Source: Winogradskyella sp.
GTDB taxonomy: Bacteria; Bacteroidota; Bacteroidia; Flavobacteriales; Flavobacteriaceae
NCBI GenBank assembly: GCA_004211785.1
Contig: SHBX01000001.1
Span: forward strand, 186,001-250,000
Direction: 5' to 3'
DNA length: 64,000 nt
A model generated the notes under the pieces. That model was given only the letters and a program-made list of their open reading frames with translations. It made no database searches and was not told the DNA's origin. A program made the position numbers and the translations under genes. Below are positions 31,422 through 60,762 of the stretch, in pieces (the stretch's first letter is position 1; every line of letters begins with the position of its first letter).

Positions 31422-32279
31422 TTATAAAGCATTAAGCATTTGTTCTTTAATCTTTTCAAGTTCATCCTTCATTTGTACGACCAATTTTTGCATTGGTGCA
31501 TAGTTAGATTTTGAGCCAATTGTGTTTATTTCTCTTCCTATTTCTTGAGAAATAAATCCTAATTTTTTCCCGTTAGAATCTTTTGAATTTAATGAGGAAA
31601 CAAAATAATCCAAGTGGTTATCAAGCCTTACTTTCTCTTCAGTAATATCAAATTTTTCGATGTAGTAAACGAGCTCTTGCTCAAAACGGTTTTCGTCCAC
31701 TTTTTCTTTAATATCCGCAATGCCTTTTTCAAGTCTTGCGCGAACACCGTCAATTCGTTCAGGGTCCATTTTTATGACTTGATTAAGTAAGTCGCGTAAT
31801 GTTGCGATACGAGATTCAAAATCTTGTTTTAAGCTAGCACCTTCATCTTCACGATAACTTTTTATATGGTCGAGTGCTTTATTTATTTCAGATTGAATAG
31901 AAGACCATTCATTTTCATCAATTTCATCTCGCTCGGTAATAATGGCATCAGGTAATCTTACAGCCATTTTTAATAGTTCTGTAGCATCACCATCAACAAC
32001 TTCTTTAAGTTGTTTGATGTATTCTTTTACAATGGTTTTATTGATTTTTGAGCTAGTGTCTTCGCCAGTAACTTCAACATAGAGTGAAAAATCTACCTTG
32101 CCTCTTACCAAATGCTTCGCAATAAGCTTACGTATATCTAGTTCTTTTGCACGATACATTGAAGGCATACGTACATTGAGGTCAAGATTTTTACTATTAA
32201 GAGATTTTAATTCTATTGTTATTTTTTTGGTAGGAAGCTGAAGCACAGATTTCCCATAGCCAGTCATGGATTGTATCAT
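31422..32279 (-). CDS. YicC family protein (endoribonuclease-type)
   Basis: MIQSMTGYGKSVLQLPTKKITIELKSLNSKNLDLNVRMP...GREINTIGSKSNYAPMQKLVVQMKDELEKIKEQMLNAL; start set at MIQSMTGYG. Confidence 0.95.
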   Translation of the reverse strand: MIQSMTGYGKSVLQLPTKKITIELKSLNSKNLDLNVRMPSMYRAKELDIRKLIAKHLVRGKVDFSLYVEVTGEDTSSKINKTIVKEYIKQLKEVVDGDATELLKMAVRLPDAIITERDEIDENEWSSIQSEINKALDHIKSYREDEGASLKQDFESRIATLRDLLNQVIKMDPERIDGVRARLEKGIADIKEKVDENRFEQELVYYIEKFDITEEKVRLDNHLDYFVSSLNSKDSNGKKLGFISQEIGREINTIGSKSNYAPMQKLVVQMKDELEKIKEQMLNAL

Positions 32280-32378
32280 ATAATACAGAACTTTAAAGTT
32301 GGCCAAAGGTACAAAATAGAACGGTTTTATTTGAGAAAAGAATTCTGAGATGCTAAGCATCGAAGTTTCCTAAAAATT

Positions 32379-32407
32379 GTCATTCCGAACTTGTTTCGGA
32401 ATCTTCA
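32379..32407. repeat. Short palindromic dispersed element, intergenic copy
   Basis: GTCATTCCGAACTTGTTTCGGAATCTTCA; 8-bp arms ATTCCGAA/TTCGGAAT with 5-nt loop; related to the copy in bioF. Confidence 0.65.
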
Positions 32408-32434
32408 CTAAAGTAAATTTTAAAGACTTTAGTG
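32406..32434. repeat. Perfect inverted repeat CACTAAAGT...ACTTTAGTG
   Basis: 9-bp arms with 11-nt loop, directly after the palindromic element and upstream of the thioesterase gene. Confidence 0.5.
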
Positions 32435-32467
32435 TATCTTTACAGCTTGATTATAACGAAAGTAAAT

Positions 32468-32950
32468 ATGTACAAAAAACAATTTGAAATCCGTTGGAGC
32501 GATGTTGATGCTAATGGGCACTTAGCAAATTCTGCATATACTAATTTTATGAGCCATGCTCGTATGTCTTTTTTTGCAGAACAAGGTTTTTCGATGCCAG
32601 AAATCATGAAACACGGTATAGGTCCTGTAGTTTTCTACGAGCATATGTTTTACTTTAAAGAATCCTTTATTGGAGCACCAATAACAGTTACTATAGAGGT
32701 TTCTGGTTTAAGTGAAGATGGTATGTTTTTTATGTTTGAACATAACTTTTATAACCATAAAGGCGAAAACTTGGCACATTGTGAAATGCAAGGTGGATGG
32801 ATTGATTTAAAAGCTAGAAAGCTCTGTGAGTTGCCAGAAAATTTATTGCAGCTGGCAGACAAATTTCCTAAATCTGAAAGCTTTAAAATATTAACCAGAG
32901 AAGATACGCGTAAGCATGGTGTGAAGCCAAAACACCTAAACCAAGAATAA
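32468..32950 (+). CDS. Acyl-CoA thioesterase (4HBT-like)
   Basis: MYKKQFEIRWSDVDANGHLANSAYTNFMSHAR; start set downstream of track start. Confidence 0.88.
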   Translation: MYKKQFEIRWSDVDANGHLANSAYTNFMSHARMSFFAEQGFSMPEIMKHGIGPVVFYEHMFYFKESFIGAPITVTIEVSGLSEDGMFFMFEHNFYNHKGENLAHCEMQGGWIDLKARKLCELPENLLQLADKFPKSESFKILTREDTRKHGVKPKHLNQE

Positions 32951-57376: not shown

Positions 57377-58642
57377 TCAGAGAATCTCTAAAGAATTTTC
57401 AATAATTGCATAAACTTTATTTAATTGCTGGTCTGAAATTATGTAAGGCGGTTGAATGTAAATGGTATTGCCAAGAGGTCTTAAGAACACGCCATTACTC
57501 ATAAAGAATTTTAGAAGTTTGTCTCGTAAATCTCCGTAACGCGGAACTTCAATATCTAAGTCCAAAGCAAAAATAACACCGATATGTCTTGTGGATTTTA
57601 CTTTAGGATGTGTTTTTATGCGTTCAGAAAATTGTTGATGTGATTCAGAAATACGGTTAATATTTTGTTGTGTCTCTTCAGAAGTTAATAACTCAATTAC
57701 AGCTAATGAGGCTGAGCATGCAATAGGGTTTGCGGAATAGGTATGGCAATGAAAAAAGCCTTTTGCCATCTCGTTACTCAAAAACGCATCATAAATATCT
57801 TCTGTACAAGAGGTAATTGCCATAGGTAATAATCCTGCTGTTAATGCTTTACTTAGACATATAATATCTGGTTTTGTTTCAATATAATCGGAAGCAAAAT
57901 ATTGTCCTGTTTTTCCAAAACCAGTCATAACTTCGTCAGCAATGGTAAGAATATGATTGGATTTGCAGAACTTTAATATCTCATTTAGACCTTCAGTATT
58001 ATGAATTTTCATTCCGGCTGCGCCTTGAACCAAAGGTTCGTAAATGAATCCAGCGATGTCCAAATTAGAGCTATACTCTTTAAGCTGATTTAAAATGAAT
58101 TCATGATTATTCCCATCAGGAACAGGAATGCGCTTTACATCAATTAAAAATTCTTCGAAAGGGCCATTGTAAACAGAAAGTCCCGAAACACTCATAGCAC
58201 CAAATGTATCGCCATGAAAACCATTTTTGAAAGCTATAAAGATTGAACGTTTTTGACCTCGATTATAATAATACTGCAAAGCCATTTTAATTCCTGCTTC
58301 TACTGCTGTAGAACCATTATCGTTAAAGAAAATTCTGTTTTGATTCTGCGGTAAAATCTTAATGAGTTCTTCAGATAGTTTTACGGCAGGTTCATGGGTA
58401 AAATCACTAAACATAATTTGGTCTAGCTGTCGCATTTGTTGCGATACTTTATTTACGATATAGTCATTACAATGCCCAAATATGCAGGTGTACCATGAGG
58501 AGATTGCATCGATATACTCGTTGCCATCTTCATCTGTTAGTGTGCAGCCTTTTGCTTTTACAATGGCCAAACTCTCAGGATGCGTTTGGTGTTGTTTTAG
58601 TGGATGCCAGAGATGCTTTTTATCACGTTCTTTTAAACTCAT
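57377..58642 (-). CDS. bioA: Adenosylmethionine-8-amino-7-oxononanoate transaminase
   Basis: HLWHPLKQHQ, ISSWYTCIFGHCN, FFNDNGSTAVEAGIKMALQYY, DEVMTGFGKTG. Confidence 0.95.
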   Translation of the reverse strand: MSLKERDKKHLWHPLKQHQTHPESLAIVKAKGCTLTDEDGNEYIDAISSWYTCIFGHCNDYIVNKVSQQMRQLDQIMFSDFTHEPAVKLSEELIKILPQNQNRIFFNDNGSTAVEAGIKMALQYYYNRGQKRSIFIAFKNGFHGDTFGAMSVSGLSVYNGPFEEFLIDVKRIPVPDGNNHEFILNQLKEYSSNLDIAGFIYEPLVQGAAGMKIHNTEGLNEILKFCKSNHILTIADEVMTGFGKTGQYFASDYIETKPDIICLSKALTAGLLPMAITSCTEDIYDAFLSNEMAKGFFHCHTYSANPIACSASLAVIELLTSEETQQNINRISESHQQFSERIKTHPKVKSTRHIGVIFALDLDIEVPRYGDLRDKLLKFFMSNGVFLRPLGNTIYIQPPYIISDQQLNKVYAIIENSLEIL

Positions 58643-59247
58643 AGTGCATTCTTAAACTTATTGGCATATTCTCTAATGACATTTTTGTCAAAATAAGGTT
58701 CGTCTTCAATTCTCCCAATGATATTAACTCCTGTCATTTTTTCGATAATGCTTTCAGTAGATTTATACTCATTTCCACTATAAATTAAACTGATATCAAA
58801 GCCTTTTTCTTTCAATGTGTTTATAGTCAAAAGCGTATGATTAATACTCCCTAAATAATGACGCGAAACCACAATGACTTTATAATTGGGTTGAATAATA
58901 TTTAAAATAGTTTCGTTGTCATTAAGCGGCACCATCAATCCACCAGCACCCTCAATAACCAGATTGTTTTTAGTATTTGGTACTTTGATTTTTTTTAAAT
59001 CTATGTTTACGCCATCAATTTCTGCGGCACCATGAGGGCTCATAGGTGTTTGTAATGCATAGCTATTGGGATGAAGAACTGATTTTTTGTTCGAGATTAA
59101 TTGCTGAATTTTATGTGTATCACTATTGTCAAGTTCTCCAGCCTGCACGGGTTTCCAATAATCAGCTTCTAAGGCTTCAACCAATATAGCTGAAGCAATA
59201 GTTTTGCCTACATCTGTAGATATTCCGGTTACGAAGTAGCTAGACAT
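58639..59247 (-). CDS. bioD: Dethiobiotin synthetase
   Basis: YFVTGISTDVGKTIASAILVEAL, YWKPVQAGELDNSD, VIEGAGGLMVPLNDN. Confidence 0.95.
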   Translation of the reverse strand: MSSYFVTGISTDVGKTIASAILVEALEADYWKPVQAGELDNSDTHKIQQLISNKKSVLHPNSYALQTPMSPHGAAEIDGVNIDLKKIKVPNTKNNLVIEGAGGLMVPLNDNETILNIIQPNYKVIVVSRHYLGSINHTLLTINTLKEKGFDISLIYSGNEYKSTESIIEKMTGVNIIGRIEDEPYFDKNVIREYANKFKNAL

Positions 59248-59634: not shown

Positions 59635-60762
59635 TTATAAAACAAAGGTAACAAGTAACTCTAAGATTTGAGTAATTTCCTGTTCTGAATTATAACTATG
59701 TAGACAAAAACGCAAACGTTCCTCACCAATTGGAATAGTAGGAGAGAGGATAGGTTTTACATCAAATCCATTATTTTGAAGTTCTGTTGCTATATTTTTT
59801 ACCTTTTTATTTCCTTGAACAATACAAGATTGAATTGCAGAATGACTTGATATAAAACTATTTTGAAGATTCAAGCGTTCTACTTCGGTATTAAAAAACG
59901 TAATATTTTCTTTTAATTTTTCTTGCGGCAAATTTGAAGCGAATAAATGCTCATAGGCACATTGAATTGTCGCTACGGAATGCGGTGACAAACTTGTAGT
60001 GTAAATCAATGCTCTTGAAAAATTAACGAGGTAGTCTTTTAAATCTTGAGACCCAAAAATTGCCGCACCATGGCAACCCATTGCCTTACCAAAAGTGACA
60101 ATACGTGCAAAAATAGGAATGTTGACTAATCCTTGCCCAAAAACACCAATAGCGTGTGCTTCATCTATGATAAGATGTGCGTTATGTTTTTCGCATAGTT
60201 TTGAAAGCGCATCAATATTTGGAGAATCGCCATCCATGGAAAATACAGATTCTGTCACTATGTAAATGACTTGATGAGATTCTGAATCAAGTTCAGAATG
60301 ACGACGGATGATTAGTTCTAAATCATCTAAATCATTATGCTTAAACTTATAAGCCTTTGCATTACTTAATTGTATGCCATCACGGATTGAAGCATGACTA
60401 TATTCGTCATACAAAATTACATCACCACGTTGAGGTACTGCAGAAAAGAACCCTAAATTGGCATCATAACCAGAGTTATAAACTAAGGTAGCTTCCGTAT
60501 TATGAAAACTGCAAAGTGTTTTTTCTAAATGGATATATAGTTCATGATTACCTGAGAGAAGACGAGAACCCGTTGCACCGTTCACCTTGAAATCATTTTT
60601 AATTAGAGCGTTGTGTGCGTTGTTAAAAATAGTTTCAGATTTGGCAAACCCTAGATAATCGTTTGAAGAAAAATCAATCAGTTTAGAGCTTGAATTTAAT
60701 TCCCGAAAGGAATTTCTATTCTTTCTATCAGTGAGTTTTTTATGTAATTTTTTTGGTAACAC
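59635..60762 (-). CDS. bioF: 8-amino-7-oxononanoate synthase-like PLP acyltransferase
   Basis: IDFSSNDYLGFAKS, NGATGSRLLSGNHELY, VTESVFSMDGDSPNIDAL, DEAHAIGVFGQ, VTFGKAMGCHGAAI. Confidence 0.92.
   Translation of the reverse strand: MLPKKLHKKLTDRKNRNSFRELNSSSKLIDFSSNDYLGFAKSETIFNNAHNALIKNDFKVNGATGSRLLSGNHELYIHLEKTLCSFHNTEATLVYNSGYDANLGFFSAVPQRGDVILYDEYSHASIRDGIQLSNAKAYKFKHNDLDDLELIIRRHSELDSESHQVIYIVTESVFSMDGDSPNIDALSKLCEKHNAHLIIDEAHAIGVFGQGLVNIPIFARIVTFGKAMGCHGAAIFGSQDLKDYLVNFSRALIYTTSLSPHSVATIQCAYEHLFASNLPQEKLKENITFFNTEVERLNLQNSFISSHSAIQSCIVQGNKKVKNIATELQNNGFDVKPILSPTIPIGEERLRFCLHSYNSEQEITQILELLVTFVL
60272..60306 (-). repeat. Short palindromic element inserted in frame in bioF
   Basis: Minus strand CCGTCGTCATTCTGAACTTGATTCAGAATCTCATC; arms ATTCTGAA/TTCAGAAT (60279-60286, 60292-60299), loop 5 nt; encodes ..RRHSELDSESH.. 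Confidence 0.65.

Follow-up and report, generated by a model that had tools for sequence, protein, structure and literature searches.

In-frame palindromic elements in two loops of BioF and their association with GIY-YIG nuclease genes in Flavobacteriaceae

The bioF gene of this Winogradskyella sp. contains a small palindromic element, read in frame, which contributes about 10 amino acids to a surface loop of the enzyme. We consider it probable that this segment is a CGTC-type REP, that two loops of BioF are recurrent acceptors of such sequences, and that the palindromes are the matched flanks or targets of GIY-YIG cassettes, by whose nucleases they are spread. The spread of CGTC-type palindromes has been an open question since they were described without a transposase, and with a family-matched partner gene it can be addressed using a single purified protein and a handful of oligonucleotides. 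The BioF loop is also a natural record of the repeated in-frame addition of new peptide to a metabolic enzyme, and the exchanges of palindrome family and orientation between sister species allow one to measure the rate at which selfish DNA supplies new protein sequence.

A palindromic element in frame within bioF

The element was identified in a stretch of 64,000 nucleotides (hereafter the window). The bioF ORF matches Aminotran_1_2, and its product aligns with solved structures of BioF and serine palmitoyltransferase (Table 1). Within this ORF, CGTCATTCTGAACTTGATTCAGAATCTCA forms a hairpin with the order tag-stem-loop-stem-tail, CGTC-ATTCTGAA-CTTGA-TTCAGAAT-CTCA, which is translated as R154-HSELDSESH. 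The original prediction had placed a palindrome in this region, and it is indeed found there, inside the ORF: GTCATTCTGAACTTGATTCAGAATCT (60277-60302, minus strand), translated as R-HSELDSESHQ, directly precedes VIYIVTESVFSMDGDSP. Folding of the element strand gives a tag of 4, a stem of 8, a loop of 5, a second stem arm of 8 and a tail of 4 bases (z = -3.5).

Table 1. Coordinates in the window of bioF, its palindromic element and related features.
Feature	Position	Strand	Remarks
bioF, 8-amino-7-oxononanoate synthase ORF	59635..60762	-	375 codons, GTG start; contains the element
Palindromic element, A family	60275..60303	-	In frame within bioF, 29 bases
5' stem arm, ATTCTGAA	60292..60299	-	Fold and covariation
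3' stem arm, TTCAGAAT	60279..60286	-	Fold and covariation
BioF hot spot 1, ~codons 143-166	60265..60336	-	Variable loop between helix and strand; relatives hold different palindrome families
BioF hot spot 2, ~codons 266-290	59893..59967	-	Variable loop, turn between helices
bioD	58639..59247	-	Downstream of bioF
bioA	57377..58642	-	Downstream of bioF
Second copy in the window, GTCATTCCGAACTTGTTTCGGAATCT	32379..32404	+	Compensatory C-G stem pair; intergenic
ORF beside the second copy	31422..32360	-	
ORF beside the second copy	32432..32950	+	

The element belongs to a dispersed family, which we call A. The genome (2.9 Mb in 55 contigs, about 90% complete) holds 9 copies at no more than 3 mismatches and 11 when the pattern is slightly wider, and the reversed control pattern has no match anywhere in it. 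Two matches to the motif fall in the window, and none was found in any of 100 shuffles of the window. The second of them lies between two divergent ORFs, in the intergenic gap where a sister sequence had been noted. Among the 9 copies examined, the one in bioF is the only one inside a gene, and two others are found just upstream of start codons. The bioF copy scores 24 out of 26 against the A consensus; its tag is CGTC, whereas most intergenic copies have TGTC. The tail of the A copies is unpaired and reads CTCA, and in some other families it reads CCA. We analysed the covariation of the stem in 20 copies from relatives, hand-picked for diversity: 97.5% of the cells are paired, with 18 double changes, and the covariation score was reached by none of 500 shuffles. 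A search with Rfam gave no match anywhere in the window. The number of copies in related genomes ranges from 0 to 56.

In an AlphaFold model built from 30 BioF sequences (mean pLDDT 83), codons 154-163 take up the last part of helix 145-157 and the loop that leads to strand 166-171; a second site, described below, coincides with the turn that links helices 260-275 and 278-296. The reading frames in use are open and mostly hydrophilic (the forward A element is read as HSELDSES, not as VILNLIQNL). We infer that the BioF loop tolerates the landing of such elements.

Two BioF loops and their occupants

We gathered BioF homologues from 33 related genomes and 80 GTDB loci. The loop of hot spot 1 is variable within Flavobacteriaceae, and in the other families that we sampled it is short. 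Many of these loops can be read as palindromes that are present elsewhere in the same genomes. Elements of the A family are read as HSELVSESH when forward and as EMLKRVQHD when reversed, and the other families contribute HLERSREVS (B), CQTERSRSP (C), RQAQND and HTELVEV (D), RFALND (E), and RAQSRT (F). A profile of perfect hairpins along bioF has no clear peak, because the stems of B, C, and D are bulged and many copies are eroded. We therefore scored the loops by their match to eight palindrome consensuses. At the loop, 60 of 107 distinct BioF genes reach a score of at least 13, compared with 0.44% of 1805 control windows drawn from these genes.

Such occupancy leaves next to no credence for a chance hairpin or a coincidence of codons in a linker under low constraint. 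The BioF linker is variable and poorly conserved, as this explanation would have it, but it does not account for the 26-base identity with dispersed copies, nor for the shuffles and reversed controls, none of which gave a match. In the 80 GTDB bioF loci, a stricter scan identified 66 palindromes, of which 36 are in hot spot 1, 4 in hot spot 2, and 26 in the 232 kb of bioF flanks, almost all of these intergenic; none was found elsewhere in bioF and none in shuffled loci. Hot spot 2 is occupied by palindromes in about 15 species (carriers include L117, L111, L025, L051, L060, L069, L070, and L084), with peptides such as VTPSAVEGL (L117) and VILNDSEES (L111). Palindromes at this site use another reading frame (ELVILNDSEES), and the window's species has no element there. 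Some loops hold more than one palindrome: a B element is nested within an A element in L046, other palindromes are nested within B and E-like elements in L094 and L084, and two palindromes stand in tandem in L070. Judged from these sequences, the two BioF loops can be regarded as established recurrent acceptors of several palindrome families, in both orientations, across Flavobacteriaceae.

The bioF loop of L119 contains TCTCCCCTTCAGGGGGAGATGCCTATAGGCAGGGGGG, which belongs to an unrelated palindromic repeat family.

The original prediction, a small and dispersed palindrome read in frame where the protein tolerates it, was borne out by the copies across the genome and by the palindromic loops of sister species. 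It had also expected some 10-12 residues to be absent from sister species, which was not what we found: their BioF proteins have palindromic DNA in the same loop. In the nearest relatives (L011, L012, and L040, with BioF 71-73% identical), the palindrome is of the same family but is read the other way round (MLKRVQHD), and in other Flavobacteriaceae families unrelated to it occupy this place. Hence, the dispersed in-frame element stands, but the notion of a single local insertion gives way to a recurrent hot spot in which relatives hold the same or unrelated families. The stem letters differ between the window copy (TTC/GAA) and those of its sisters (TGC/GCA), which is more than the simple flip of a single element would explain.

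We mapped the states of the loop on a quick BioF tree from which both loops were left out, with about 15 weak loop labels set by eye. The states require at least 43 changes. Among the 65 rows that bear an element, there are 30 changes, against a mean of 39.8 and a minimum of 35 in shuffled data, showing that occupancy is partly inherited and that replacement is frequent. Supported splits between sisters include A+ in the window against A- in L011/L012 (99), A+ in L045 against A- in L118 (98), D- in L084 against A- in L111 (96), and A- in L079 against F in L117 (100). These data bear on the possibility that one ancestral insertion in the flavobacterial loop was followed by divergence, the peptides being its drifted descendants. 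Some clades do keep one family (C in the Hyunsoonleella/Algibacter-like rows, B in the Flavivirga clade), many loops scored as empty resemble decayed elements, and the loops of outgroups are shorter, all of which such an ancestor would explain. Yet individual loops agree at 22-26 of 26 positions with one or another of several genome-wide consensuses, the families are not interconvertible by point changes, and supported sister species have opposite orientations. We regard a single ancestral insertion as most unlikely and reject it on the tree, given the number of changes and the differences in family and orientation between sisters.

Palindromes were also observed in other genes. In a SerA-like 2-hydroxyacid dehydrogenase (L120 1363-2340 and L168 591-1712), the same loop is filled after SFENLF: one genome has a C element there, the other a tandem of B and reversed C. 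To judge from these two loci, this is apparently a second gene with repeated capture of palindromes. Its homologue in the window's genome adjoins a B-type GIY-YIG gene (L241). Further in-frame palindromes (L164, L171, L175, L152) were seen in topoisomerase I, leucyl-tRNA synthetase, an HsdM-like methyltransferase, and a CusA-like efflux protein.

Palindromes around GIY-YIG nuclease genes

There is a strong statistical association between the palindromes and GIY-YIG genes, and it is specific to the family. In the loci sampled first, 12 of 13 GIY-YIG genes neighbour a palindrome, usually forward before the gene and reversed after it. We then used an unbiased set, fetched by a match to Pfam PF01541 alone, which includes 93 solo genes. 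A palindrome lies within 140 bp of 56 of these genes, and on both sides of 32, of which 29 have the same family on either side; the palindromes are again mostly forward before and reversed after. Control ORFs have a palindrome in 2 of 83 cases and never on both sides (Fisher p = 2.6e-18). The 37 solo genes with no palindrome at this threshold include many from other subfamilies, and one small subfamily of about 82 aa (FVYILYSK type), which has no palindromes, serves as an internal control.

A strict detector of tagged hairpins picked up no cassettes beyond A, G, and H, and we replaced it by a library of families and a family-agnostic comparison of flanks. In the latter, the upstream flank is matched to the inverted downstream flank: a score of at least 14 is reached by 10 of 29 genes from across the phylum, compared with 0.9% of cross-paired flanks, and one of the matches, L351 in another family, has a CGTC-like repeat of a different kind. 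On the GIY-YIG tree, the palindrome family changes 8 times over 49 rows, compared with at least 23 times in all of 200 shuffles, a difference that is inflated by orthologous cassettes at one locus. Part of the agreement between families and clades is explained by co-inheritance at this locus, the cassette between bioD and bioA.

All four stand-alone GIY-YIG genes of the window's genome adjoin palindromes (A on both sides in C52, D on both sides in C34, B-like in C45 and C1). The A-type nuclease (C52; L243 496-771) has Thr (LDDTMERH) in place of the conserved Arg of its relatives (LDDRMERH), and so it may now be inactive, though four A copies are identical.

The locus between bioD and bioA differs between two Bizionia records. 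In L042 (G147), it holds a GIY-YIG gene of 93 codons bracketed by palindromes, one before the gene and four after it, and this 600-bp cluster includes all five strict A-family copies of that genome. Its sister L043 (G148) is 97% identical, and exactly one palindrome joins the same bioD and bioA flanks. MITEs are marked by terminal inverted repeats and a target-site duplication; as regards this comparison, we found no lone palindrome with a clean unoccupied counterpart, and G147 and G148 differ by a cassette between two palindrome copies. This difference may have arisen by loss and not by gain. In the Bizionia pair L280 (palindrome, GIY-YIG gene, four palindromes) and L043 (a single palindrome), the outermost palindromes are direct repeats, which reads like the loss or gain of a cassette by recombination between palindromes. 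Tandem near-identical GIY-YIG genes were seen in other Bacteroidota (G280:C1:1733881-1734727, G264:C94:20327-20905, and G215:C86:45033-46092).

From these arrangements we infer that the GIY-YIG nuclease may act on the palindrome, and that this would drive the spread, swap, and loss of palindromes. The cassette consists of a palindrome, the nuclease gene, and an inverted palindrome, and the statistics show that each family is matched by its own clade of nucleases. The nuclease would nick or cut its cognate palindrome, the substrate probably being a hairpin that is single-stranded or extruded. Through repair and recombination, palindromes could then be copied, deleted, or swapped, and solitary hairpins would remain. 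Intragenic copies would persist only where their length and frame are harmless, e.g., in the BioF loop, which would leave mostly open, hydrophilic frames. Landing in this loop is perhaps favoured by the cassette that a dozen or more species have between bioD and bioA. As the bio-operon cassettes are of A type and other families fill many of the BioF loops, the hot spot calls for more than proximity.

The link between nuclease and repeat may instead be passive, by hitch-hiking. Alternatively, the palindromes may be selected functional sites, e.g., acting in DNA uptake or recombination or as mRNA hairpins, and the GIY-YIG protein a domesticated regulator instead of a mobility enzyme. The strong covariation of the stem fits selection on the hairpin, and Ssn (see below) reportedly cuts single strands at the NTS repeat and affects transformation. 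On the other hand, copy numbers from 0 to 56 among related genomes, and intragenic copies that are scattered over unrelated proteins and decaying in sequence, look selfish, and we consider selected sites an unlikely explanation.

A third possibility is that these are ordinary REPs, mobilised by transposases of the RAYT type (IS200/IS605-like tyrosine enzymes), with the GIY-YIG genes as incidental neighbours. RAYTs mobilise GTAG-type REPs (PMC3733652), and Y1 transposases occur in 11 of the 20 relatives searched. But the genome of the window has no match to Pfam PF01797, nor have 8 other genomes with palindromes among the 20 searched, a palindrome occurs in only 2 of 30 Y1 loci, and not adjacent, compared with 56 of the 93 GIY-YIG genes, and no RAYT/IS200 transposase is flanked by CGTC units (PMC3733652). 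This scenario is highly improbable, and RAYT was rejected as the mobiliser because it is absent from the window's own genome and the Y1 loci have no flanking repeats.

Returning to spread by GIY-YIG nucleases, a wider claim would be that these are the missing mobility enzymes of CGTC palindromes, those of the Rickettsia kind included, each clade with its specific hairpins, and that the BioF loop took up at least five of the families. We hold the case for this claim to be evenly balanced.

Comparison with known systems

Ssn, a meningococcal GIY-YIG enzyme, reportedly cuts single-stranded DNA at the NTS repeat and modulates transformation, and is said to represent a family of GIY-YIG nucleases that cleave single strands at Neisseria repeats and have thousands of homologues. 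Stand-alone GIY-YIG genes flanked by repeats, said to be a trait of Ssn, are also found here, a likeness of association only. The link between nuclease and repeat may thus have been published in part, if the report on Ssn described flanking repeats. We know of no Rickettsia palindromic elements for which one loop has repeatedly captured several families. In the literature searched, we found no description of recurrent capture by BioF with swaps of family and orientation, nor of a tie between protein-coding palindromes and GIY-YIG cassettes or between GIY-YIG genes and REPs. With GIY-YIG homing endonucleases (superfamily survey, PMC1564403) and with Ssn, the genes studied here share the domain and the small stand-alone form. 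There is no group I intron or intein here, and matches to the NCBIfam group I intron endonucleases are far below the cut-off.

The GTAG REPs, REPINs, and RAYTs also combine a small hairpin with a nuclease-type gene flanked by inverted copies and matched by family (PMC3733652, PMC3116915). They differ in that the tag here is CGTC/TGTC and not GTAG, and that the gene encodes a GIY-YIG nuclease and not a tyrosine transposase, the Y1 loci not being associated.

By structure, the palindromes fall among the CGTC-tagged REPs of Di Nocera et al. (2013), a superfamily that includes RPE-4 and RPE-6 of Rickettsia, has Bacteroidetes among its host phyla, and for which no dedicated mobility gene or transposase was found; intragenic copies were reported, with one case of a shared site, in recB of two Xanthomonas (PMC3733652). 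Members of the superfamily have a CGTC, TGTC or CCTC tag, a stem of 8-9 bp and a loop of 4-5 nt. Our elements have the same CGTC/TGTC tag, an 8-bp stem that begins with A-T, and a 5-nt loop, and they are also dispersed in multiple, mostly intergenic copies (9-11 here, with 1 of 9 intragenic). The tail is short and unpaired, but in the A copies it reads CTCA, where the consensus is mostly CCA, as in some of the other families here. In contrast, the stems of B and C are bulged (the B consensus folds into a shorter, bulged stem), two sites are shared by dozens of species, and the palindromes are associated with GIY-YIG genes. The likeness to Rickettsia palindromic elements that was originally suggested extends to structure, which is that of the superfamily holding RPE-4 and RPE-6 (PMC3733652). 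As in those elements, an in-frame insertion in an enzyme gene adds a peptide to an otherwise conserved protein, with other sequences and in other hosts.
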